In this document: positions 19,586-43,626 of the stretch, piece by piece
Position numbering within the stretch: the stretch's first letter is position 1
Layout: each line of letters starts with the position of its first letter
From: Chitinophagaceae bacterium
Lineage (GTDB): Bacteria; Bacteroidota; Bacteroidia; Chitinophagales; Chitinophagaceae
NCBI GenBank assembly: GCA_025934485.1
Contig: JAICXX010000012.1
Span: forward strand, 1-64,000
Length of the DNA stretch: 64,000 nucleotides
Direction of reading: 5' to 3'
Notes under the pieces: model-generated
The model's input: only the letters and a program-made list of their open reading frames with translations
Database searches by the model: none
What the model was told of the DNA's origin: nothing
Translations under genes and position numbers: made by a program

Positions 19586-19606
19586 TTGGGTAGAAACCCA
19601 ACCCAA
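19586..19606 (+). promoter_or_regulatory. leader hairpin next to the start codon
   Basis: TTGGGT (19586-19591), loop AGAA, ACCCAA (19596-19601), then a second ACCCAA (19601-19606) whose last A is the first base of the ATG. The single TTGGGT can pair with either copy. The second pairing would hide the initiation region. A role in translation control is inferred. Confidence 0.35.
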
Positions 19607-22600
19607 TGAAGAGACCTATACTCGTCGCTACATTAATGACCTTAGTTTGTGCCGTCCGTGCCCAGACTTCCTATACCTGGAACGGTTCCCTCTCCTCTGC
19701 CTGGACTACCGCAGGCAACTGGGCCCCTAACGGCGTTCCGGGATCGGCCGACAATGTCACGATCGTACCCGGAAGCAATACCTGCCAGCTGACAACCAGC
19801 CAATCGATAGGTAATTTCACCCTTAACAATGGAACCCTGGACCTGGGCGGGGCAACGCTCACGATCAACGGCGCCACCGTGACCTTTACTAAAGGCACGG
19901 TACAAAACGGTATGCTGAACATTGCCTCGGCGACGACCACCAGCTTTACCACCGGCCCCACCGTGATGAACTGCCCGGTGACCATCTCTTCCGCCACGAT
20001 CACCTTAAAGAATACCATCTTTCAGCAAGCGCTGACGATCACCAAAACGGGTGCGAGCAACGACGCCAGCCCCGGCGGCGACGTCTTCAACGGTCCGGTG
20101 ACGATCACCAACGCAGGCTCGGGTAGTCTCTACCTCGCCAATGGCGCCGGCGATCAATTCAATGCCAATGCAACGTTCAACAACACCGGCAGCGCGAGCC
20201 TTATGATCGCGCACAACAGTACCAACAACAGCTTCAATGGTCTCACTTCGCTCAACAATGCCTCGAGCGTCGGCGGCATTTATGTCAGCTGGTACTCCGC
20301 CGGCACCCAATTCAATAATATTGCCGTGACCTCCACGAACGGTCAGGGCATCTTGTTTTGCGGCGCCAATACCTCCGCCAGCGCTACGCTCGCCGCCGGC
20401 GACAGCATCTACATCGGTGCAGGCGGATTCTCCGCAGGCCAGCTGTCGCTGCGCCAATTTAACCAATCCGATGCAACGCCGCTGAATTTCAATCTTACCG
20501 GCACAGGCGATCTCGTCTTTGGCCTATCGAGCACTTTTCTCGGTACCGTCACCAGTTCCAGCCCGTCGCTGAGTTTCAACGGCGCCACATTCAACGGTGT
20601 GAGCAGCTTCACCAAAACAGGATCCACAGGCGACTGGAGCAATGGCGGCAACATCTTCAATGCCGCCTGTTCCATCACCAATAGCGGAAGCAGCTATCTC
20701 GTACTCGGCAACGGCAATCCCGACACATGGAACAGCGACGTCACCTTCACCGACAATGGCTCGGAACGCCTGTTGCCCGGATGGAACTCCACCGGCAACC
20801 AGTTCAACGGGAATATCTATGTCAATACGGCCGGTAGCGCCCAGGGTATCCAGTTCTGCGGCGGCAACACCACCTCCACGGCAACCCTGGCAGCTGGTAA
20901 GACGATCCTGGCGGGTACCACGGGTCTCACCGCCGGCTATCTCTATCTGAAACAATTTACCCAGCTCGGTAGCACCGCCATCAACCTTACAGGCACCGGG
21001 TCCGCGGCAATGTATCTGGGCCCTTCCAGTACTTTCGGCGGCGCGATCACAGTAACGGCTCCGGATATCTTTCCGCAAGGCGCCGCATACAACGGTCCTG
21101 CTGTCTTCACCAAGACCGGCGGCAACAGCAATAATAACAACGGGAATCAAAATATCTTTAACTCCACCTGTACGATCAACCAGCAAAGCAGCAGCGGCTA
21201 TTTTATGCTGGGCAATAATACCAACGATCTATTCAACGACAATATCACGGTGACCGCTACCGGCACAAGTAACATCTATCTCGGCTGGAATAGCGGCACG
21301 GCTACCCTCGCCGCAGGCAAGACCATCCAGGTCGGGTCCGCCGGTTACAATTCGGGGTTATTGTACCTGGACAGCTTTACGCAACTCGGTACGGCTCCGA
21401 TCAACCTGACCTTCACCGGCACGAATACCGGCATCGTGTTTGGCCACTCGTCGACATTCGGCGGCAATGTCACCGTTACTGCCCCTGATATCTATCTCAA
21501 TGGCGCCATCTTCAATGGCACGCTCAGCACGAACAAGACCGGCTCGAACGGCGATTATAGCAGTGGTGGAAATACCTTCAACGGTATCTGTACGATCACG
21601 AACAGCAGCAGCGGATATATCGTGCTGGGTAACGTCAATCCCGACACCTGGAATGCCGATGTCAATTTCATCGACGCCGGTTCAGAGCGTATTCTGCCCG
21701 GCTGGAACTCCATAGGCAACCAGTTCAATGGAAATATTTTTGTCAACACTTCGGGCAGCGCTCAGGGCATCCAGTTTTGCGGTGGCAATAACACCTCCAC
21801 GGCAATACTGGCCGCAGGCAAGACCATCCAGGCCGGGTCCATCGGACTCAATGCCGGCTACCTGATCCTGCGGCAGTTTACTCAAAACGGCAATGCTCCC
21901 GTGAACATCACCATGAACAGCACCGCCGGCTATCTGACCTTCGGCCCCAGCTCGACCATCGGCGGCAATGTCGTCACTTCGACGCCTGGTTTGAATTTTA
22001 GCGGCTGTACCTTCAATGGCACCGTGACCTCCGTCAAGAACGGCGCTTCCAATGATAATAGTAACACCGGTAACGATATTTTCAATGGCGTAGTCAATGT
22101 CACCGACTCCGGAGCAGGCTATATCGTTTTCGGCGGCTACGGTCCCGATCAATTCAACGCCGCCGCCACCTTCACCAACGCGGGGACCGCTAACTTCTAT
22201 CTCGCCCATAACGCCCCGGGCACCGTTTTCAACGGCGTCACCACCTTTATCAATACACCGGTGGGGAACAACTCGATCTATGTCAGCAACTATTCCACCG
22301 GGACGACGTTCAACAATAATATCGTAGTGAATTCCACCAGCGGCGGCGGTATCCAGTTCTGCACAGGCAATACTACGGCCACGGCAACCCTGGCCTCCGG
22401 CTATACGATGTCGGTAGGCCCCCTTGGATATACGGCCGGCTATCTGGATCTCCGGCAGTTCACCCAGTTTGGCGCCACGCCGGTGAATCTCACCCTTACC
22501 GGCACGAGCGATCTGATCTTCGGACCCACTTCGGCTTTCAATGGAGCCGTCACTACCTCGAGCCCCGCGCTTAACCTGAACGGTTGTACCTTTAACGGCG

Positions 22601-25600
22601 CTTCCAATCTGACGAAGACCGGCACCACGGGTGACTGGTCCCAGGGCGGCAACGTATTCAACGGGGTCTCCACCATCACCAACAGCGGAACGAGCTATGT
22701 TGTCCTCGGCAACACCTATCCCGATACCTGGAACAACGATGTCACTTTTACCGACAATGGCACCGAAAGATTATTACCCGCCTGGGCAACGGCCGGTAAC
22801 CAGTTCAACGGGAATATCAATGTCAACACCGCAGGCAATGCCCAGGGCATCACGTTCTGCGGCGGCAACACCACCGCTACGGCGATCCTGGCGGCGGGAA
22901 AGACCATTCAGGCGGGATCCGGCGGATTGAACGCCGGCTACCTGATCCTGAAACAATTTACCCAGAACGGGAACGCGGCCATCAACCTTACGCTGAACAG
23001 CACGGCAACCTATCTGCAATTCGGTCCGGGCTCGGCGTTGGGCGGCAACATCCTTTCCTCGAGCCCCGGCCTTTACTTCGACGGCTGTACGTTCAGCGGC
23101 ACCGTGACATCCACAAAGACGGGCGGGTCGACGGACTGGAGCTCCGGTAACAACATCTTCAATGGTGTGACGCAGATCACCGACGCAGGCAACGGCTCGC
23201 TACTGTTGGGTAGCGGCAACCTCGATCAATTCAATGCCAACGCTACGTTCAACAACACCGGCACCGCAAGCATCTATGTGGCCCAGAACAGCGTCAATAA
23301 TGTCTTTGGTGGTGTCGCTACATTCAACAATACACCCAGCGGCAATGGCATGATCTATGTCAGTCCCTATTCTACCGGTACAACCTTTAACGGCAATATC
23401 GTCGTAACCTCCACCGGCGGCGCCGGCGTTCAGTTCTGCACCGGCAACACCACCGCTACGGCAATCCTCACGGCAGGCAATACGATCTCCGTAGGTCCGG
23501 GCGGATTTTCCGCCGGTACGCTGCTGTTGCGCCAGTTCATCCAGCAGGGCTCGACCCCTCAGAGTCTCACGCTCACGGGAACGGGTAATCTCACCTTCGG
23601 TCCCCTGGTAAATCTCAGCGGTAATTTCGCCACCGTAAGCCCCGCCCTGTTCTTCAACGGCGGCGTTTACAACGGCTCCATGACCTCTACCAAGAACGGT
23701 ACCAGCAATGACGGCTCCGTAGGTAACAATACCTTCAATGCGCCTTTTGCCGTGACCAACACCGGCACCGGCTATTTCCTCATGGGCAACGGCAGCCCCG
23801 ATATCTGGCAGTCCACGGCCAGCTTTACCAACCAGAGCCCGTCTGCCCACCTGTACACCGCGTGCAACAGCACGGGAAACATCTTCAACGGTGATGTGAC
23901 TTTCAACAACCAGGCCGGCAACACGAATCTGTGGATCTATACCAACTCCTATGGCGTCAATACCCAATTCAACGGCAATATCTTCGTCGGTAATACCACC
24001 GGCGCCGGCGTGTATTTCGGTGCTAACACGGGTACGGAAACCCTTGCCGGCAGCGGCTCCATCGGCGTTAGCTCCCTTGGTTTTACAGCAGGCACGCTGC
24101 AGTTGAAGAATTTCACCCAGGCTACCGCCGGCACCCCACAGAATATCACCACCACCGGCACGAGCATCATCCAGTTCGGCCCCGCCGCCAGCTTTGCCGG
24201 CCCCGTAACGTCTTCCAGCGGTGGCATGCTGTTCAACTCCTCCACCTTTAATGGCACCGTGAATTCCACCAAGACCGGCGGTACCAACGATCAAAGCCCC
24301 GGTAACAATACCTTTAATGCCCAAAGCACATTCACGAACAGTGGTTCGGGTTATCTGGAAATGACCTACAGCGGCGGCGACACCTACAACGGCGATGTCA
24401 CCTTCGTCAAGAACGGTTCCGGCGCCCTCTCACCGAACTATAACAATACCGGCACCTATAACGGCAATGTGACCGTCACATCCCCTTCCGCTTCGGCCAT
24501 TACCTTTGGCTCGGGCTCCGGCACGGCCCTCTTCTCCGGTAGCAGCACGCAGACTATCAATGCCACCGCCGGAAGCGCTACACCGGTGTTCACCCGTTTA
24601 ATGCTCAACAACAGCAACGGCATGACCCTGAACACACCGATCAATGTATCGAACACGCTTACTTTAACCAGCGGTCTGTTCAATACTACCATGACCAATA
24701 TCCTCACCATGACGAACGGTTCTGTCACGACGGCGGGAACGGCACTCTCTACAAGCTATGTGAACGGTCCCATGCGTTATCAGAAATCGGCGTCGGGCAG
24801 CAGCACGCTGAACTTTCCGGTAGGAGCGGCGCCGGATTGCCGTCCCGTTGTCCTCACGGTGAATCACAGCACCAACACCTTGTATAGTTATACCGTCCAG
24901 GTGTTCGACGCCAGCGCCCAGGCCCTGAATTACACGTTGCCTCCATCGGTGGATCGCGTTTCGGCCCATCACTATTACATCATCGGCCGTACCGACGCCT
25001 CGGGCACGAGCCAGCCGAATGCCGGTCTGAGCGGCAATCAACAGATCCAGATCTTCTTTGGCGCCAACGATGATAGCGTGAGTAACGGCAGCACCCTGAC
25101 GATCGTCAAGAATACCTATCTCGCGCCCACCGCCTGGATCGATATCGGCGGGACCGGCGGACCAGCCTCCGTAGGCGGCGCCGAACTCAATGGCAGCATC
25201 ACCTCCACCTCTTCGCCTACGGCGTTCGCTTCGTTTTCGACCTTCGCGATTGCCGATAAGATCGGCGGAGGAAACGTATTGCCCACCGAGCTGCTGTACT
25301 TCAATGCAAAACCCGATAACACCCAGGTCGATCTGACATGGGCTACCGCCATGGAAGCAAACAGCGATTACTTTACGGTGGAGAGAAGCGCCGATGGCAT
25401 CGCCTTCGATTCCGTGCTGCGGGTAGCCACGCTGGCGCCAAACGGCAACAGCAGTATCAAGCTGAATTATTCGGCATATGACCTGACGCCGCTGCCCCGC
25501 GCAAGCTATTACCGCCTGAAGCAAACAAGCATCGACGGGTCGACAAAATATTCCGGTGTCGTATCGGTGAATTTTACGCACCAGACGCCGCTCAACATCT

Positions 25601-25830
25601 ATCCCAACCCCAGCAGGGGAACGGTCTATGTCAGCGGTCTGCCGGTGACCGCGGCTTCTATCCAGGTCTCCTGGTATGATCTCGGCGGCAGGCTCCTCCT
25701 GCAGCAGGTAGCCGCGCCCCAGGGAGGCCTATTGCAATTGAATACACACCTCGACAACGGCGACTATATCCTGAAACTGCAGGCGTCCGATGGTACGTCG
25801 TTCACTCGCACGGTGATCATGATGAAGTAA
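19606..25830 (+). CDS. giant T9SS-exported beta-repeat surface protein
   Basis: 2074 residues. Signal peptide to about 20, then a start domain with WTTAGNWAPNGVPGSADNV. Nine imperfect units begin at about residues 146, 337, 501, 641, 809, 1002, 1168, 1361 and 1553, each opening with KTG or KNG, a Ser/Asp/Asn stretch and IFN or TFN. Full unit lengths are 190, 166, 141, 167, 193, 167, 192 and 193. The composition (Thr, Asn, Gly, Ser) predicts a beta-helix or solenoid. The C-terminal 80 residues are a type A T9SS sorting domain (LNIYPNPSRGTVYVSG to the final VIMMK). It is probably a cell-surface or released adhesin; no enzyme domain was recognised. Its last 14 bp overlap the convergent exosortase-associated gene. 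Confidence 0.88.
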   Translation: MKRPILVATLMTLVCAVRAQTSYTWNGSLSSAWTTAGNWAPNGVPGSADNVTIVPGSNTCQLTTSQSIGNFTLNNGTLDLGGATLTINGATVTFTKGTVQNGMLNIASATTTSFTTGPTVMNCPVTISSATITLKNTIFQQALTITKTGASNDASPGGDVFNGPVTITNAGSGSLYLANGAGDQFNANATFNNTGSASLMIAHNSTNNSFNGLTSLNNASSVGGIYVSWYSAGTQFNNIAVTSTNGQGILFCGANTSASATLAAGDSIYIGAGGFSAGQLSLRQFNQSDATPLNFNLTGTGDLVFGLSSTFLGTVTSSSPSLSFNGATFNGVSSFTKTGSTGDWSNGGNIFNAACSITNSGSSYLVLGNGNPDTWNSDVTFTDNGSERLLPGWNSTGNQFNGNIYVNTAGSAQGIQFCGGNTTSTATLAAGKTILAGTTGLTAGYLYLKQFTQLGSTAINLTGTGSAAMYLGPSSTFGGAITVTAPDIFPQGAAYNGPAVFTKTGGNSNNNNGNQNIFNSTCTINQQSSSGYFMLGNNTNDLFNDNITVTATGTSNIYLGWNSGTATLAAGKTIQVGSAGYNSGLLYLDSFTQLGTAPINLTFTGTNTGIVFGHSSTFGGNVTVTAPDIYLNGAIFNGTLSTNKTGSNGDYSSGGNTFNGICTITNSSSGYIVLGNVNPDTWNADVNFIDAGSERILPGWNSIGNQFNGNIFVNTSGSAQGIQFCGGNNTSTAILAAGKTIQAGSIGLNAGYLILRQFTQNGNAPVNITMNSTAGYLTFGPSSTIGGNVVTSTPGLNFSGCTFNGTVTSVKNGASNDNSNTGNDIFNGVVNVTDSGAGYIVFGGYGPDQFNAAATFTNAGTANFYLAHNAPGTVFNGVTTFINTPVGNNSIYVSNYSTGTTFNNNIVVNSTSGGGIQFCTGNTTATATLASGYTMSVGPLGYTAGYLDLRQFTQFGATPVNLTLTGTSDLIFGPTSAFNGAVTTSSPALNLNGCTFNGASNLTKTGTTGDWSQGGNVFNGVSTITNSGTSYVVLGNTYPDTWNNDVTFTDNGTERLLPAWATAGNQFNGNINVNTAGNAQGITFCGGNTTATAILAAGKTIQAGSGGLNAGYLILKQFTQNGNAAINLTLNSTATYLQFGPGSALGGNILSSSPGLYFDGCTFSGTVTSTKTGGSTDWSSGNNIFNGVTQITDAGNGSLLLGSGNLDQFNANATFNNTGTASIYVAQNSVNNVFGGVATFNNTPSGNGMIYVSPYSTGTTFNGNIVVTSTGGAGVQFCTGNTTATAILTAGNTISVGPGGFSAGTLLLRQFIQQGSTPQSLTLTGTGNLTFGPLVNLSGNFATVSPALFFNGGVYNGSMTSTKNGTSNDGSVGNNTFNAPFAVTNTGTGYFLMGNGSPDIWQSTASFTNQSPSAHLYTACNSTGNIFNGDVTFNNQAGNTNLWIYTNSYGVNTQFNGNIFVGNTTGAGVYFGANTGTETLAGSGSIGVSSLGFTAGTLQLKNFTQATAGTPQNITTTGTSIIQFGPAASFAGPVTSSSGGMLFNSSTFNGTVNSTKTGGTNDQSPGNNTFNAQSTFTNSGSGYLEMTYSGGDTYNGDVTFVKNGSGALSPNYNNTGTYNGNVTVTSPSASAITFGSGSGTALFSGSSTQTINATAGSATPVFTRLMLNNSNGMTLNTPINVSNTLTLTSGLFNTTMTNILTMTNGSVTTAGTALSTSYVNGPMRYQKSASGSSTLNFPVGAAPDCRPVVLTVNHSTNTLYSYTVQVFDASAQALNYTLPPSVDRVSAHHYYIIGRTDASGTSQPNAGLSGNQQIQIFFGANDDSVSNGSTLTIVKNTYLAPTAWIDIGGTGGPASVGGAELNGSITSTSSPTAFASFSTFAIADKIGGGNVLPTELLYFNAKPDNTQVDLTWATAMEANSDYFTVERSADGIAFDSVLRVATLAPNGNSSIKLNYSAYDLTPLPRASYYRLKQTSIDGSTKYSGVVSVNFTHQTPLNIYPNPSRGTVYVSGLPVTAASIQVSWYDLGGRLLLQQVAAPQGGLLQLNTHLDNGDYILKLQASDGTSFTRTVIMMK
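20041..24560 (+). repeat. nine-unit coding repeat array
   Basis: Imperfect units of about 420-580 bp. Units 1, 5 and 7 share the DQFNA type, units 2, 4 and 6 the DTWN type, and unit 3 is a shorter variant; 8 resembles the long type and 9 is partial. Related units also share DNA words, for example around 20800, 21720 and 22800, so recombination between units is plausible. Confidence 0.75.
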
Positions 25831-26230
25831 CCTGTGTTGCCGCCAGGCGGTAGACCAGCCCGGCAACCACAAATGGGATCGGCGAGATCAGCGACTCGTG
25901 TACGGTGATGATGAAATCCCGGAACGGGACCGAAAGGCTCTGTGTCCAGAAATCATAGACACCCAATAAGAGTAGGATGCCGAGGATACCGAGATAACCG
26001 ATGTTCCATATCTGCACCAGCCAGGACGGGTAGACACGGGTAAACACCCTGAGCCCGATGGCATAGGTGATCAATATGGTAGAGAACCGGATTACATGCC
26101 GTACTCCCCGCGACGAACCATCGAGAAAACGCGGGTTGTCGAAGTACAACATATAGACCGTATACAACAAGGCGATGGCCGCCAGTCCGGCGACGAAACG
26201 CCAACGCTTGCTATTATCGTGTAAAGCCAT
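25817..26230 (-). CDS. small membrane protein of the exosortase locus
   Basis: 137 residues with four predicted helices (about 12-30, 45-62, 70-92 and 108-130) and few charged residues between them. It begins 17 bp inside the exosortase gene, so the two are translationally coupled. Bacteroidota exosortases are often followed by a small multi-pass protein (for example the exosortase F system-associated family); this one fits that role by position, size and topology, but I cannot assign it to a named family. Its end overlaps the convergent giant repeat gene by 14 bp. Confidence 0.72.
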   Translation of the reverse strand: MALHDNSKRWRFVAGLAAIALLYTVYMLYFDNPRFLDGSSRGVRHVIRFSTILITYAIGLRVFTRVYPSWLVQIWNIGYLGILGILLLLGVYDFWTQSLSVPFRDFIITVHESLISPIPFVVAGLVYRLAATQVTSS

Positions 26231-26816
26231 GTAAGTTCAGCTTTTTAGAAAGATCCAGATTCCTGGAAAACAGGAACCACAACCAGAATATAAACGCATA
26301 GACCAGGAACGTGAACAGGTAATGATGGGAAAAATCCAGATATTCAGGATGCGTCAAGTAGATCTCTGCCAACGCTGTGCACCGTATCACGTTCAACACC
26401 TCGATGCACACAACGCCGGGCAGGATAAAAAGCAGTTTCCGCTTGGTACTGGCCGGCAGACAAAGGATCAGCCCCGCATAAAGCACCATCACCTCCAGGC
26501 CATTGCAAACGTCGGCGATCGACAACACTCGCTCCCGGAACAAATTGATGTGCATCACGGGTTCCTCGATCCATGTGTCGCCGTCCTTTTTGGGATTTTC
26601 ACCCGCCACAGTCCAGAAACCGCCGGAGTGGCTGATGGCGTTAAGGGTCTTGGTTGTTCCAACCCCTATCATATAGGTGAGAGGCTTATCCAAGACCCTT
26701 CCCGGTAATAGAACCAGCAGATACAAGGTCTTCCAGGCAACAAATAAAATAACGGCTTTCAGCGAAAATATCTTGACCGGACCCGGAATCTGTTTCCATT
26801 TTCCAACGATAGACAT
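26214..26816 (-). CDS. exosortase/archaeosortase-family transpeptidase
   Basis: 200 residues with several membrane helices. The catalytic triad of the family is visible: Cys104 in ADVCNGLEVM, Arg145 in LNVIRCTAL and His164/165 in FSHHYLFTF. Exosortases cut C-terminal sorting signals of exported proteins at the inner membrane. The preceding gene encodes a protein with exactly such a signal, so this is probably a dedicated enzyme-substrate pair. A GTG at 26819 overlaps the upstream stop (TAGTGATG), so start is GTG 26819 or ATG 26816, and either way the genes are coupled. The exact Xrt subclass is not determined. Confidence 0.82.
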   Translation of the reverse strand: MSIVGKWKQIPGPVKIFSLKAVILFVAWKTLYLLVLLPGRVLDKPLTYMIGVGTTKTLNAISHSGGFWTVAGENPKKDGDTWIEEPVMHINLFRERVLSIADVCNGLEVMVLYAGLILCLPASTKRKLLFILPGVVCIEVLNVIRCTALAEIYLTHPEYLDFSHHYLFTFLVYAFIFWLWFLFSRNLDLSKKLNLHGFTR

Positions 26817-26818
26817 CA

Positions 26819-27211
26819 CTATTCCGTATCGTTGTTGTTTTCTTCAGAGGGTTTGTTCTTGCCAAAGGCTTTCTTCACGCCCAAACCGATACCAGCCGCC
26901 AAAAGCAGGCTGAGACCGCCGTCGAGCGGCGCATTCTGGCCGGCACCTGGCGGGTTGGGTTGATCGCCCTGCGAGTTGCTACCTTGATCGTCATTTCGTC
27001 CAAAACGATGACCGCGGTTCAGCTCAAACCGGCGAAGATAGGTCTGCTCTGCATCATACTGACCACGACCGCCGGACATGTCACGATATCTTTCTCTGTC
27101 CTGAAAACCGTAGGCTGGTGCAGGCCCCCCAAACGCAAAGACCGTTGAAGGGATTAAAATGGGGAGAACAAATGATGAGAAGATCACGAGGAAGCGTAGT
27201 AGCTTTTTCAT
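26819..27211 (-). CDS. secreted exosortase substrate with PID-CTERM-like sorting tail
   Basis: 130 residues from MKKLLRFLVIF; the frame is open to 27247, but the ATG at 27211 gives a normal signal peptide (to about Ala26). The mature part is short, rich in Arg, Asp, Gln, Asn and Gly. Residues 95-99 are PLDGG, followed by a hydrophobic stretch (LSLLLAAGIGLG) and KK, the plan of PID-CTERM sorting signals in Bacteroidota. Unusually, a 16-residue polar tail ending EENNNDTE follows the basic pair. Function of the mature protein is unknown. Confidence 0.75.
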   Translation of the reverse strand: MKKLLRFLVIFSSFVLPILIPSTVFAFGGPAPAYGFQDRERYRDMSGGRGQYDAEQTYLRRFELNRGHRFGRNDDQGSNSQGDQPNPPGAGQNAPLDGGLSLLLAAGIGLGVKKAFGKNKPSEENNNDTE

Positions 27212-40593: not shown

Positions 40594-43500
40594 ATGCCAA
40601 ACCTCTACCCTGGCATCCTACCGCTCTTACGTAGTGGCCAAAGGCTTTTGTGTCTTTGCGCCGCGTTTCTGCTCCCTTTCTTTCTGTTCGCGCAACCCTC
40701 GATCAGTTCCGTCACGCCCGTCTCGGGTCCTGTAGGAACGACGGTCACCATCAACGGCAATAACTTCAGCACAACCACTTCTTCCAATATCGTTCGTTTT
40801 GGTACGGTCGCTGCCCCGGTCACCGCGGCTACGGCGACCTCGCTTACCGTTACCGTACCCGTCGGTGCCAGCTATAAGCCGATCACCGTGACCACCGGGG
40901 GATTGACGGCCTATTCCTATACACCCTTTAACATCACCTTTAGCGATCCGGGAGCCTTCACCGCTTCCTCCTTCGCACCGGCTAAGAATTTTTCCACGAG
41001 CTCTACCACCCCCCAGGACATGACCGCCATGGATTTCGACGGCGACGGGGTAACCGATCTGGCCGTGGCCAACGGTCAGGACAACTCCGTTGCTGTGTAT
41101 CATAACACCAGTACGAACGCGTCCGCTACGTTCACGACACAATATTTTGCAAACGGACCCAGCGGGTATTGGCCCGTGGGCCTGGCCTCGGGGGATCTGG
41201 ACGGGGATGGAAAACCCGATCTCGTGATGGCCAACAACAACGGCTCTAATTTTGTAGTCTATCAGAATATCAGTTCCCAGGGACATATCTCCTTCACCCA
41301 GCTTCCGCCCTTCGGTGAACCGGGCATACCTTACTGGGTGGCGATTGGCGACCTTAACGGTGATGGGAAACCGGATGTCGCTCTCGTGGAAACGAATGGC
41401 AACACCATCGAAGTCTTCCCCAATACCAGCACCGTGGGAAGCATTTCTTTCGGCACTCCGGTGCCCGTCTTCCTACCTAACGGGTATTCTCCCTGGGCCG
41501 TCGCCATCGGCGATTTCGACCGGGACGGCATGCCCGATCTCGCTGCGACGGACTGGAGTAATAACAACCTCTCTGTATTTCGAAACAAGGGCAGTGCCGG
41601 CGGGTCTATTTCTTTTGGCAGTCATCAGGATTTTGCCGTCGGCAACAGCCCGCAGGGTCTTGCAGTGGGTGACCTCGATGGCGATGGTTTCCCCGATATC
41701 GTCGTCGGAAATAACACAGACAACTCTTTAACGCTCTTGCGCAGCACCAGCAGTCCCGGCTCCATCTCTTTCGCGACGACCACCCACGCTACCGGCGCGG
41801 GTCCTTATTACATAGCGATCGCCGACCTCAATGGCGACGGGCTTCCGGATATCGCCTCCGCCAGCAATGGCCCGGGCACCGTTTCGGTTCTCCGCAATGC
41901 CAGCACACCCGGCTCGATCGCACTGGCGGCCAGTGTAGACTATGCGACGGATAACGGGCCGATAGCCGTCAGCCTTGCCGATCTGGACGGCAATGGTACG
42001 CCGGATATAGCCATCCTCAATGAGAACGGATCCCACCCCGCTCCGGATTTCTCGGTGCTCCTTAACCAGAACCCGAACGCCCCGGCGATCACGAACTTTA
42101 CCCCGACCAGCGGTGGAACGGGCACGCAGGTGACCATCAACGGTGTGAATTTCACCGGCGCCACGGACGTGACCTTTGGCGGTGTAGCCGCAACTTCTTT
42201 TAGCATCGTGAGCTCCACGACGATCACGGCTATCGTTGGTACCGGTGCCACGGGCGCCGTTCAGGTGACCACGCCAAACGGAACCGCCTCCCAATCGACC
42301 TTTAGCTTCGGCGCTGCGGCGTTACCGCCGTCCATCAGCAGCTTTCAGCCGGCATCGGGCACCTATGGCGACACCATCACCATCCAGGGCACCAGCCTGA
42401 TACAAACTTCTTCGGTCTCCTTTGGCTCCGTATCGGCCCTCAGCTTTACGATCCTCTCCGATACCGTGATCACCGCCATCGTGGGCGAAGGCGCCAGCGG
42501 CAACGTCACCCTCAATGCTTCCTCATCGACACCCTCTTCATTAAGCGGGTTTACCTATACCCCGCCTCCGGCCCTCGTGGTGACCGGATTTTCGCCGGCA
42601 TCCGGGATGTCAGGCGCGACTGTTACCATCACCGGCAGCGGATTCCTAAACACACCTACAGTAACTTTCGGCGGCACGGCAGCTTCTTACATTCATGTCG
42701 TCAACGATTCCGTGCTCACCGCAACTGTAGCCGGCGGGTCCACCGGATTTGTGGCCGTACAGGCATTCAACGGTACCGATTCCGTATCGGGCTTTACCTA
42801 TATCCCTTCGAGCGCGCCGCAGCCGCCTGTACTCACCTCCTTCACGCCGCTCACCGGTGGCACGGGAGCCAGGATCACCCTTGATGGCAAGCATCTCAGC
42901 GGCGTGAACAGCGTCACCTTCGGCGGCGTCCAGGCGGCGTCCTTCCAGATCGTCTCCGATTCCGTGATCATTGCGATCGTCGGTCCCGGCGCCTCCGGCC
43001 AGGTCACCATCACCAATGGAAGTGTATCCGGCTCTCTGCCCAACTTCCTTTTTTCCACCGATACCACCCAGACCTCGGCCAACGGCCCCTTCCAGCTGGT
43101 GACCTTCACCGCTTCGCTCGTGTCTAACCAGCCGTTCCTGCAATGGACCACGGTAAACGATGGCGGCATCGCGCATTACTCCGTGGAACGCGGCGTCGAC
43201 GGCAATAATTTCACGACGATCGGCACCCTCAAATCGAAGGACGCCGGAGGCCTGGGCGCCACCTATACCTTTACGGATTCTTTCCCGAAACCGGGATTAA
43301 ACTATTATCGCATCAAAGCACAGGATACCGCCGTAAACTACTACTATAGCGAGATCCGGGCCGTGCAGCTGCTAAGCATGGAGATGCCGGTCTACCCCAA
43401 TCCGGTGAAATACGGTTTCTTCCTGGTCGACCTGCCGTCGATCACGAAGTCCTCCATTTTCCAGCTGACCAATACCTGGGGAATGATCGTGCAAACGATC

Positions 43501-43626
43501 CAGGTGCCGCCCGGCGTGGCACAGCAACGGATCAATATTCCGGGGCTGCTGCCCGGAACCTATCGCCTTAGGTGGACGGATGGGACCAGGATCGCCTATC
43601 AGACCATCCTCGTGCTATACAAGTAG
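40594..43626 (+). CDS. T9SS-exported FG-GAP and IPT/TIG repeat protein
   Basis: 1010 residues with signal peptide (FLLPFFLFAQ). One IPT/TIG domain (about 35-110), then seven FG-GAP/VCBS calcium-binding turns (for example DFDGDGVTDLAVAN, DLDGDGKPDLVMAN, DLNGDGLPDIASAS) predicted to form a beta-propeller, then four more TIG domains (about 490-830; FTPTSGGTGTQVTINGVNF is typical), a fibronectin-like segment (about 845-930) and a T9SS sorting domain starting at PVYPNPVKYG and ending ILVLYK. It is probably a surface adhesin or glycan-binding protein. It stands alone, divergent from the permease pair and convergent with the phosphoketolase gene. Confidence 0.88.
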   Translation: MPNLYPGILPLLRSGQRLLCLCAAFLLPFFLFAQPSISSVTPVSGPVGTTVTINGNNFSTTTSSNIVRFGTVAAPVTAATATSLTVTVPVGASYKPITVTTGGLTAYSYTPFNITFSDPGAFTASSFAPAKNFSTSSTTPQDMTAMDFDGDGVTDLAVANGQDNSVAVYHNTSTNASATFTTQYFANGPSGYWPVGLASGDLDGDGKPDLVMANNNGSNFVVYQNISSQGHISFTQLPPFGEPGIPYWVAIGDLNGDGKPDVALVETNGNTIEVFPNTSTVGSISFGTPVPVFLPNGYSPWAVAIGDFDRDGMPDLAATDWSNNNLSVFRNKGSAGGSISFGSHQDFAVGNSPQGLAVGDLDGDGFPDIVVGNNTDNSLTLLRSTSSPGSISFATTTHATGAGPYYIAIADLNGDGLPDIASASNGPGTVSVLRNASTPGSIALAASVDYATDNGPIAVSLADLDGNGTPDIAILNENGSHPAPDFSVLLNQNPNAPAITNFTPTSGGTGTQVTINGVNFTGATDVTFGGVAATSFSIVSSTTITAIVGTGATGAVQVTTPNGTASQSTFSFGAAALPPSISSFQPASGTYGDTITIQGTSLIQTSSVSFGSVSALSFTILSDTVITAIVGEGASGNVTLNASSSTPSSLSGFTYTPPPALVVTGFSPASGMSGATVTITGSGFLNTPTVTFGGTAASYIHVVNDSVLTATVAGGSTGFVAVQAFNGTDSVSGFTYIPSSAPQPPVLTSFTPLTGGTGARITLDGKHLSGVNSVTFGGVQAASFQIVSDSVIIAIVGPGASGQVTITNGSVSGSLPNFLFSTDTTQTSANGPFQLVTFTASLVSNQPFLQWTTVNDGGIAHYSVERGVDGNNFTTIGTLKSKDAGGLGATYTFTDSFPKPGLNYYRIKAQDTAVNYYYSEIRAVQLLSMEMPVYPNPVKYGFFLVDLPSITKSSIFQLTNTWGMIVQTIQVPPGVAQQRINIPGLLPGTYRLRWTDGTRIAYQTILVLYK

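Follow-up and report, generated by a model that had tools for sequence, protein, structure and literature searches.

An XrtX-like exosortase unit in a Chitinophagaceae bacterium and the possible role of PID-CTERM proteins beside type IX secretion cargo

Introduction

What purpose is served by an exosortase that is encoded together with a single short substrate? The question is raised by three adjoining genes in the window, by which is meant the whole stretch of 64,000 nucleotides analysed here (contig JAICXX010000012.1, assembly GCA_025934485.1, from a Chitinophagaceae bacterium). All three lie on the minus strand, and they specify a 130-residue protein with a PID-CTERM sorting tail, a 200-residue XrtX-like exosortase and a 137-residue membrane protein that is its partner (Table 1). 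A sequence-only reading had already picked out these genes as coupled, which is borne out here, and had presented them as an undescribed system with one dedicated substrate. Related PID-CTERM genes often stand directly behind cargo genes of the type IX secretion system (T9SS), and this gene order leads to the reading, held here with a probability of roughly 0.6, that the trio is an XrtX-like exosortase unit whose small product serves T9SS surface proteins.

The system is not undescribed as to its parts, since NCBIfam already names all three kinds under neighbouring accessions: NF046081 for exosortase X, NF046080 for PID-CTERM and NF046082 for the XrtX-associated membrane protein. The order of PID-CTERM gene, exosortase gene and gene for a small membrane protein, together with the same type of tail, is shared with the XrtX-type loci L011, L014 and L015, and an exosortase with an associated partner gene is also a feature of the Flavobacterium johnsoniae XrtF system (Fjoh_1448/1449). 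A further point of comparison is the PorU sortase with the T9SS type A domain, whose targets, in bacteria of this kind, are surface proteins. PorU is a different enzyme, with a different signal, and acts at the outer membrane; the PorU-like frame in this genome matches NF033707 only in pieces and below the cut-off. The layout of the substrate, with putative signal peptide, short motif, helix and basic end, resembles that of the PEP-CTERM/EpsH system of Proteobacteria, for which a sortase-like action of the membrane enzyme was suggested (PMC1569441). It differs from PEP-CTERM in its motif, PxDGG instead of PEP, and in the number of substrates, which is one here against a median of eight there (PMC1569441).

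Table 1. Features of the exosortase trio and of the gene that converges on it (positions in the window).
Feature	Position	Strand	Description
PID-CTERM substrate	26819..27211	-	130 amino acids; NF046080 33.3 bits, cut-off 26
Substrate sorting tail	26822..26926	-	PLDGG at residues 96-100, glycine/alanine-rich helix, KK and polar end
XrtX-like exosortase	26214..26816	-	200 amino acids from ATG; TIGR04178, NF046081; 87 aligned loci
Cys104 codon	26505..26507	-	Presumed nucleophile; invariant in 87/87
Arg145 codon	26382..26384	-	Presumed catalytic; invariant in 87/87
His164-His165 codons	26322..26327	-	His164 presumed catalytic, 87/87; His165 75/87
Partner membrane protein	25817..26230	-	137 amino acids, helical; possible remote relative of XrtX-associated membrane protein
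Convergent giant surface protein	19606..25830	+	2074 amino acids; T9SS type A C-terminal sorting domain at 25597-25815

The exosortase, its substrate and its partner

The exosortase passes the signature of the exosortase/archaeosortase superfamily (TIGR04178, 50.6 bits against a cut-off of 23), and the conserved Cys, Arg and His of that superfamily are present in all 87 aligned loci as Cys104, Arg145 and His164, which we take to be the catalytic residues. The sequence-only reading had described these, together with the less constant His165, as intact (Table 1). The best-scoring model for the enzyme is NF046081, at 123.9 bits, which falls below the cut-off of 170 and so outside formal membership. 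That cut-off is passed in none of the 100 genomes with an NF046081 match among the 294 searched in the window's family, and the exosortase of L014, from a Bacteroidetes metagenome-assembled genome (MAG), reaches 171.3 bits. The window's exosortase also stays below the cut-off of the XrtF model TIGR04128 (62.5 bits against 90), which separates it from the XrtF system, and it scores 18.1 bits with PF09721, where 25.7 are required. The Pfam model Exosortase_EpsH is too insensitive for such a survey, as it has no match in this genome at E ≤ 0.001 despite the exosortase present. On its sequence the enzyme can fairly be called XrtX-like, that is, a side branch of the named kind and no formal member of NF046081.

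Relatives of this exosortase were found in 90 of the 294 family genomes at E ≤ 0.001. Apart from the window, the 87 loci compared here are six named ones and 80 regions that surround matches with E of about 8e-19 or better; they were thus picked by similarity to the window's exosortase, weaker matches being excluded. In a tree of 86 of them (one fragment was dropped) the window forms a clade, with support of 95/89, with L010, L046 from the window's own genus and L047, and a PID-CTERM gene adjoins the exosortase gene in all four. L010, a MAG of Puia dinghuensis, is the closest named relative, with 58% identity. A second XrtX match in this genome has an E of just 0.65, leaving one clear exosortase of the XrtX-like group. 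One branch of exosortases that have no adjacent PID-CTERM gene lies directly behind a gene whose product end looks, by eye, like IspF of isoprenoid synthesis (L052, L059, L075, L078, L084, L087, L088 and L106).

The substrate begins with a hydrophobic N-terminus, by eye a putative export signal with VFA at its end, and continues through a polar, low-complexity body of about 70 residues into the sorting tail, which opens, as its sequence reads, with APLDGG. The NF046080 match covers residues 95-114 of 130 (26870-26929 in the window), and with 33.3 bits it lies over the 26 bits that mark a PID-CTERM tail near the C-terminus. The pattern of the tail recurs across the PID-CTERM loci compared. Conservation of the tail, on which the sequence-only reading had made its proposal depend, is seen in the clade of four, where the substrates are alike in their tails only and their bodies differ (by eye). 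In many PID-CTERM proteins outside the window's family a two-cysteine motif, C[WFI]PPPC, stands at most two residues before PIDGG (L198-L200, L202, L207, L209-L213, L215, L217, L220, L221, L224, L011, L014 and L015); none of the 30 PID-CTERM loci of the window's family has it. Two loci, L105 and L108, carry a tandem pair of PID-CTERM-like genes ahead of one exosortase gene, one copy having the altered motif PLEGA.

The junction between substrate and exosortase genes is TAGTGATG, the exosortase having an alternative GTG start at 26819, and the exosortase and partner genes overlap by 17 base pairs (bp) at 26214-26230 (open frames were called mechanically). Both agree with the sequence-only reading, which had taken the overlaps to imply fixed stoichiometry. 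This goes too far, since over the 78 loci with a homologous partner gene behind the exosortase gene the interval between the two ranges from -142 to +101 bp; the overlap therefore speaks for coupling, not for fixed stoichiometry. As regards the three-gene order, a partner follows the exosortase in 78 of the 87 loci, and the part of the arrangement that varies is the substrate, with a PID-CTERM gene no more than 700 bp upstream of the exosortase in 29 of 87. With these frequencies the arrangement is not due to chance, and it is the partner, not the substrate, that is the constant companion of the enzyme.

The partner has no direct match in NCBIfam, the cut-off of 75 bits for NF046082 not being reached, which together with the sub-threshold score of the exosortase sets the unit apart from the XrtX kind as defined there. 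Among the 77 partners aligned (of 78, one being cut by a contig end) four match NF046082 at E ≤ 0.05, and those of L014 and L013 give 28.1 and 39.5 bits when scanned singly. A profile of 40 of the 77 family partners compared by hhalign with the four partners of L011, L013, L014 and L015 gave a probability of 89.9%, with E 1.7e-6 over 93 columns. The exosortase F system-associated model is absent from the 23 families matched by the partners, a further difference from the XrtF system. A match of the window's partner to PEN-2 (E 0.022; 15.6 bits, where the cut-off is 25) was rejected, as no other of the 77 partners has it. The description of the partner as a four-helix protein fits a model of moderate confidence, with predicted helices at 2-30, 41-66 and 69-96 and a broken one at 101-134. 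The models of exosortase and partner, built from 7 and 6 sequences, have predicted local distance difference test scores of 72.1 and 72.4, and a structure search with them returned no PDB match at E ≤ 0.001. A plasmid search gave no match.

Substrate number and co-occurrence with the exosortase

The substrate is the only PID-CTERM match over the cut-off in this genome (6.75 Mb, 93% complete), so the other tails that would have spoken against a dedicated substrate were not seen. Six weaker PID-like matches (E 0.36-8.7) were discarded, five because they lie inside open frames far from the C-terminus and the sixth because it lies within no frame of 30 amino acids. The single substrate claimed by the sequence-only reading therefore stands for this genome, though not as a peculiarity, as exactly one match is found in 87 of 113 PID-bearing genomes of the Bacteroidia (247 searched, E ≤ 0.001). 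In the window's family the figure is 43 of 105 PID-bearing genomes (294 searched, E ≤ 0.01), with a maximum of 21 matches. These counts include matches below the cut-off, one over it being present in 107 of the 113 class genomes and 94 of the 105 family genomes.

PID-CTERM and an XrtX-like exosortase occur together in 90 of the 294 family genomes, PID-CTERM alone in 15, the exosortase alone in 10 and neither in 179 (Fisher p = 2e-47, kinship ignored). Of six genomes searched in the window's genus, two have both and four have neither. Within the clade of the window, G000, G035 and G271 (the last 67% complete) have one PID match and one exosortase match each. At the other extreme, G047, G135, G199 and G285 have three to five exosortase matches, and the first three also 16-20 PID-CTERM matches; sub-specialised sets of enzyme and substrate are possible there. 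The fairly complete genomes G017, G024, G190, G208 and G238 combine a strong PID-CTERM match with no match to the XrtX model, and processing may there fall to another enzyme or to a more distant one.

T9SS cargo genes in front of PID-CTERM genes

PID-CTERM genes that lie away from an exosortase gene are often situated just behind a T9SS type A cargo gene, an arrangement that the sequence-only reading did not have. It came to light in a group of 20 loci, of which a single genome supplied half. When one locus was taken from each of the 30 family genomes with the highest scores, a choice that favours strong tails and includes close relatives (L133 and L134 are nearly one locus), 25 had a T9SS type A gene as the immediate upstream neighbour on the same strand. 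The corresponding figure is 16 for the 30 best loci class-wide, and 8 of 20 for a third, lower-scoring class-wide set (20 genomes with E from 2e-8 to 3.3e-7, already-used genomes excluded). These counts are strand-aware, allow overlaps of up to 60 bp, by which L131 enters the family set, and are uncorrected for kinship among loci. By comparison, such an upstream neighbour is present for 8 of the 525 genes in 40 control loci. The positions of these loci were chosen by hand and come from genomes of the window's family only, unmatched to the class-wide sets, with five from one genome and 20 on contigs that also carry an exosortase. In the exosortase loci themselves T9SS cargo accounts for 41 of 967 genes. 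The sorting domain model TIGR04183 matched 24 of the 27 proteins tested, namely the window's giant protein and 23 of 26 upstream neighbours of the family set.

The arrangement is polar. Among 36 PID-CTERM genes with 5 kb of sequence on both sides, 26 have a T9SS gene upstream on the same strand, three have one downstream on the same strand and none has one on the opposite strand within 700 bp. An earlier polarity count (41 of 42 upstream on the same strand) was not used, as loci of about 3 kb show only C-termini near the PID gene. The gap between cargo and PID-CTERM gene has a median of 37.5 bp (40 pairs), and the cargo proteins encoded ahead of PID-CTERM genes are the larger ones, with a median of 1160 amino acids (n = 35) against 607.5 (n = 46; p = 1.5e-5). 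Seven loci (L049, L050, L051, L061, L073, L112 and L121) unite cargo, PID-CTERM, exosortase and partner genes in four-gene sets.

The pairing of cargo and PID-CTERM genes was not found in the open-access literature, although the curators of NCBIfam may already know it. It is not described in the available parts of PMC7468200, PMC10936215 or PMC12645872, the papers that hold both exosortase and T9SS. A whole-word search returned no paper naming exosortase X or PID-CTERM, and papers matching XrtX were unrelated by title; a word-start match to 'exosortase X' in the part of PMC9860564 seen refers to XrtA.

Proposed role and alternatives

In the scheme proposed here, the small PID-CTERM precursor would leave the cytoplasm through Sec, and its tail helix would keep it in the inner membrane. 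The exosortase, with its Cys104, Arg145 and His164, would then cut at or near PLDGG, as expected from its family, leaving the tail behind, and the product of about 70 residues would be either freed or joined to an acceptor in the envelope. By analogy with its relatives, the exosortase very probably does process this substrate. As to the acceptor, it was speculated that VimA-related enzymes, which belong to the T9SS glycolipid pathway, make such a compound for exosortase substrates (PMC7468200). The four-helix partner may belong to the exosortase as a permanent subunit or act as its chaperone, since its gene is found behind that of the enzyme with far greater regularity than the substrate gene is found in front. 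Because PID-CTERM genes are so often second behind a T9SS type A cargo gene, the processed product would most likely serve the surface layer made by T9SS. Such a role appears rather probable for PID-CTERM proteins in general, and for the window's own trio it is put slightly below even odds.

A more specific and more tentative proposal is that PID-CTERM is a dedicated T9SS accessory, in which a large cargo would be co-transcribed with a tiny exosortase substrate, and the processed, often near-identical product of 10-70 residues would anchor, mature or help to display the cargo. One surface layer would then be worked on both by an exosortase in the inner membrane and by T9SS in the outer membrane, with the window's trio as a stripped-down, one-to-one form. 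The gene order supplies both candidate substrates for Bacteroidota exosortases, in the PID-CTERM genes, and a candidate client, in the cargo gene in front. It is this pairing, as a candidate purpose for these enzymes, that gives the matter its lasting interest, and the trio, in which enzyme, partner and substrate are each present once, offers a minimal case for studying the enzyme.

Several observations weigh against a T9SS role. The gene-order support is weakest at the window's own locus, where the giant T9SS neighbour converges on the trio and does not lie upstream of it. Within the clade such a neighbour is present only at the window, with none at L010, L046 or L047, so that its presence here may be a coincidence. 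No T9SS gene stands directly upstream of 5 of 30, 14 of 30 and 12 of 20 PID-CTERM genes in the three sets. Of the 15 genomes with a PID match and no exosortase match, nine have their PID match at E 1.2e-6 or below, and five of these nine are at least 93% complete, so that substrate and enzyme are either not strictly paired or the enzyme of these genomes has diverged too far for the model to match. Around the exosortase itself, counted in the 53 of 81 loci that extend 4 kb to either side, a T9SS gene occurs within 4 kb in 14 of 19 loci with an adjacent PID-CTERM gene, but in just 8 of 34 without one, which is little enriched over 6 of 40 control loci (at 14 kb shorter than most exosortase loci). 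The T9SS link therefore tracks the substrate and not the enzyme. Finally, in G232, which has 21 PID matches, one product sequence is common to 8 of 11 PID genes in ten loci (by eye) and adjoins different cargo genes, so no cargo-specific fit is visible; identical products beside differing cargo suit a generic accessory.

The only experiments on a Bacteroidota exosortase found in the literature are those on biofilms and zorbs in F. johnsoniae, where deletion of xrtF or of the partner gene Fjoh_1449 abolishes zorbs and much reduces biofilm (PMC10936215). Deletions of sprA, porV, porU and porZ give the same phenotype (PMC10936215), from which the T9SS reading draws weak support. The phenotype is, however, not specific to T9SS, as deletions of an aminotransferase and a hypothetical protein, neither of them tied to T9SS by its annotation, have it as well (PMC10936215). 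The available parts of that paper draw no link between exosortase and T9SS cargo, and the substrates of XrtF are said there to be unknown (PMC10936215).

A mutant of a surface-polysaccharide gene cluster in F. johnsoniae shows the xrtF phenotype too (PMC10936215). This favours a reading in which the exosortase unit is of the ordinary type and connected with exopolysaccharide or the biofilm matrix, and the T9SS neighbours reflect no more than the clustering of surface-protein genes. PEP-CTERM systems do accompany exopolysaccharide genes (PMC1569441), and the XrtX-type units L011, L014 and L015 adjoin, by eye, a large GumC/Wzz-like protein. The window differs in that no exopolysaccharide gene was recognised beside the exosortase, where a Pfam scan confined to six neighbouring proteins, two of them without any match, found no polysaccharide synthesis domain. 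Simple clustering would hardly yield 26 upstream, same-strand cases against three otherwise, with gaps mostly of tens of bases. Moreover, more than 65% of PEP-CTERM genes seem to form operons of one gene each, with a long gap in front (PMC1569441), and in this they are unlike PID-CTERM genes. Taken as a whole this explanation is unlikely, although it is the strongest of the alternatives.

A decidedly smaller chance is given to a dedicated peptide-releasing unit, in which the freed short peptide or protein would have a signalling or competitive role of its own, apart from T9SS. The one-to-one numbers of substrate and enzyme in the three clade genomes would suit it, as would substrate bodies that differ among close relatives (by eye) in the manner of fast-evolving secreted factors, but the shared predicted product of G232 beside different cargo suits a generic accessory more. 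That the trio is a decayed or vestigial system, whose lone substrate is left after the loss of others, is very improbable, given three open frames, three intact catalytic residues and a single PID match that is common among the class genomes and kept within the clade. The reading of the trio as an XrtX-like unit serving T9SS surface proteins is accordingly preferred to all three.

Neighbouring genes in the window

The giant protein encoded on the opposite strand, which the sequence-only reading did not mention, carries a sorting domain that scores 35.8 bits with TIGR04183 (cut-off 23) and 32.1 bits with PF18962 (cut-off 27). The end of its gene overlaps the end of the partner gene by 14 bp (25817-25830), and a convergent T9SS arrangement is also found at L098. 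T9SS type A domain matches number 51 in this genome. A second T9SS type A surface protein of 1010 amino acids is encoded in the window at 40594-43626, with no PID-CTERM gene behind it. It is possible that the giant protein is a functional neighbour of the trio. It is made of repeated units and, judging its fold by eye, is probably a repetitive, beta-rich adhesin.

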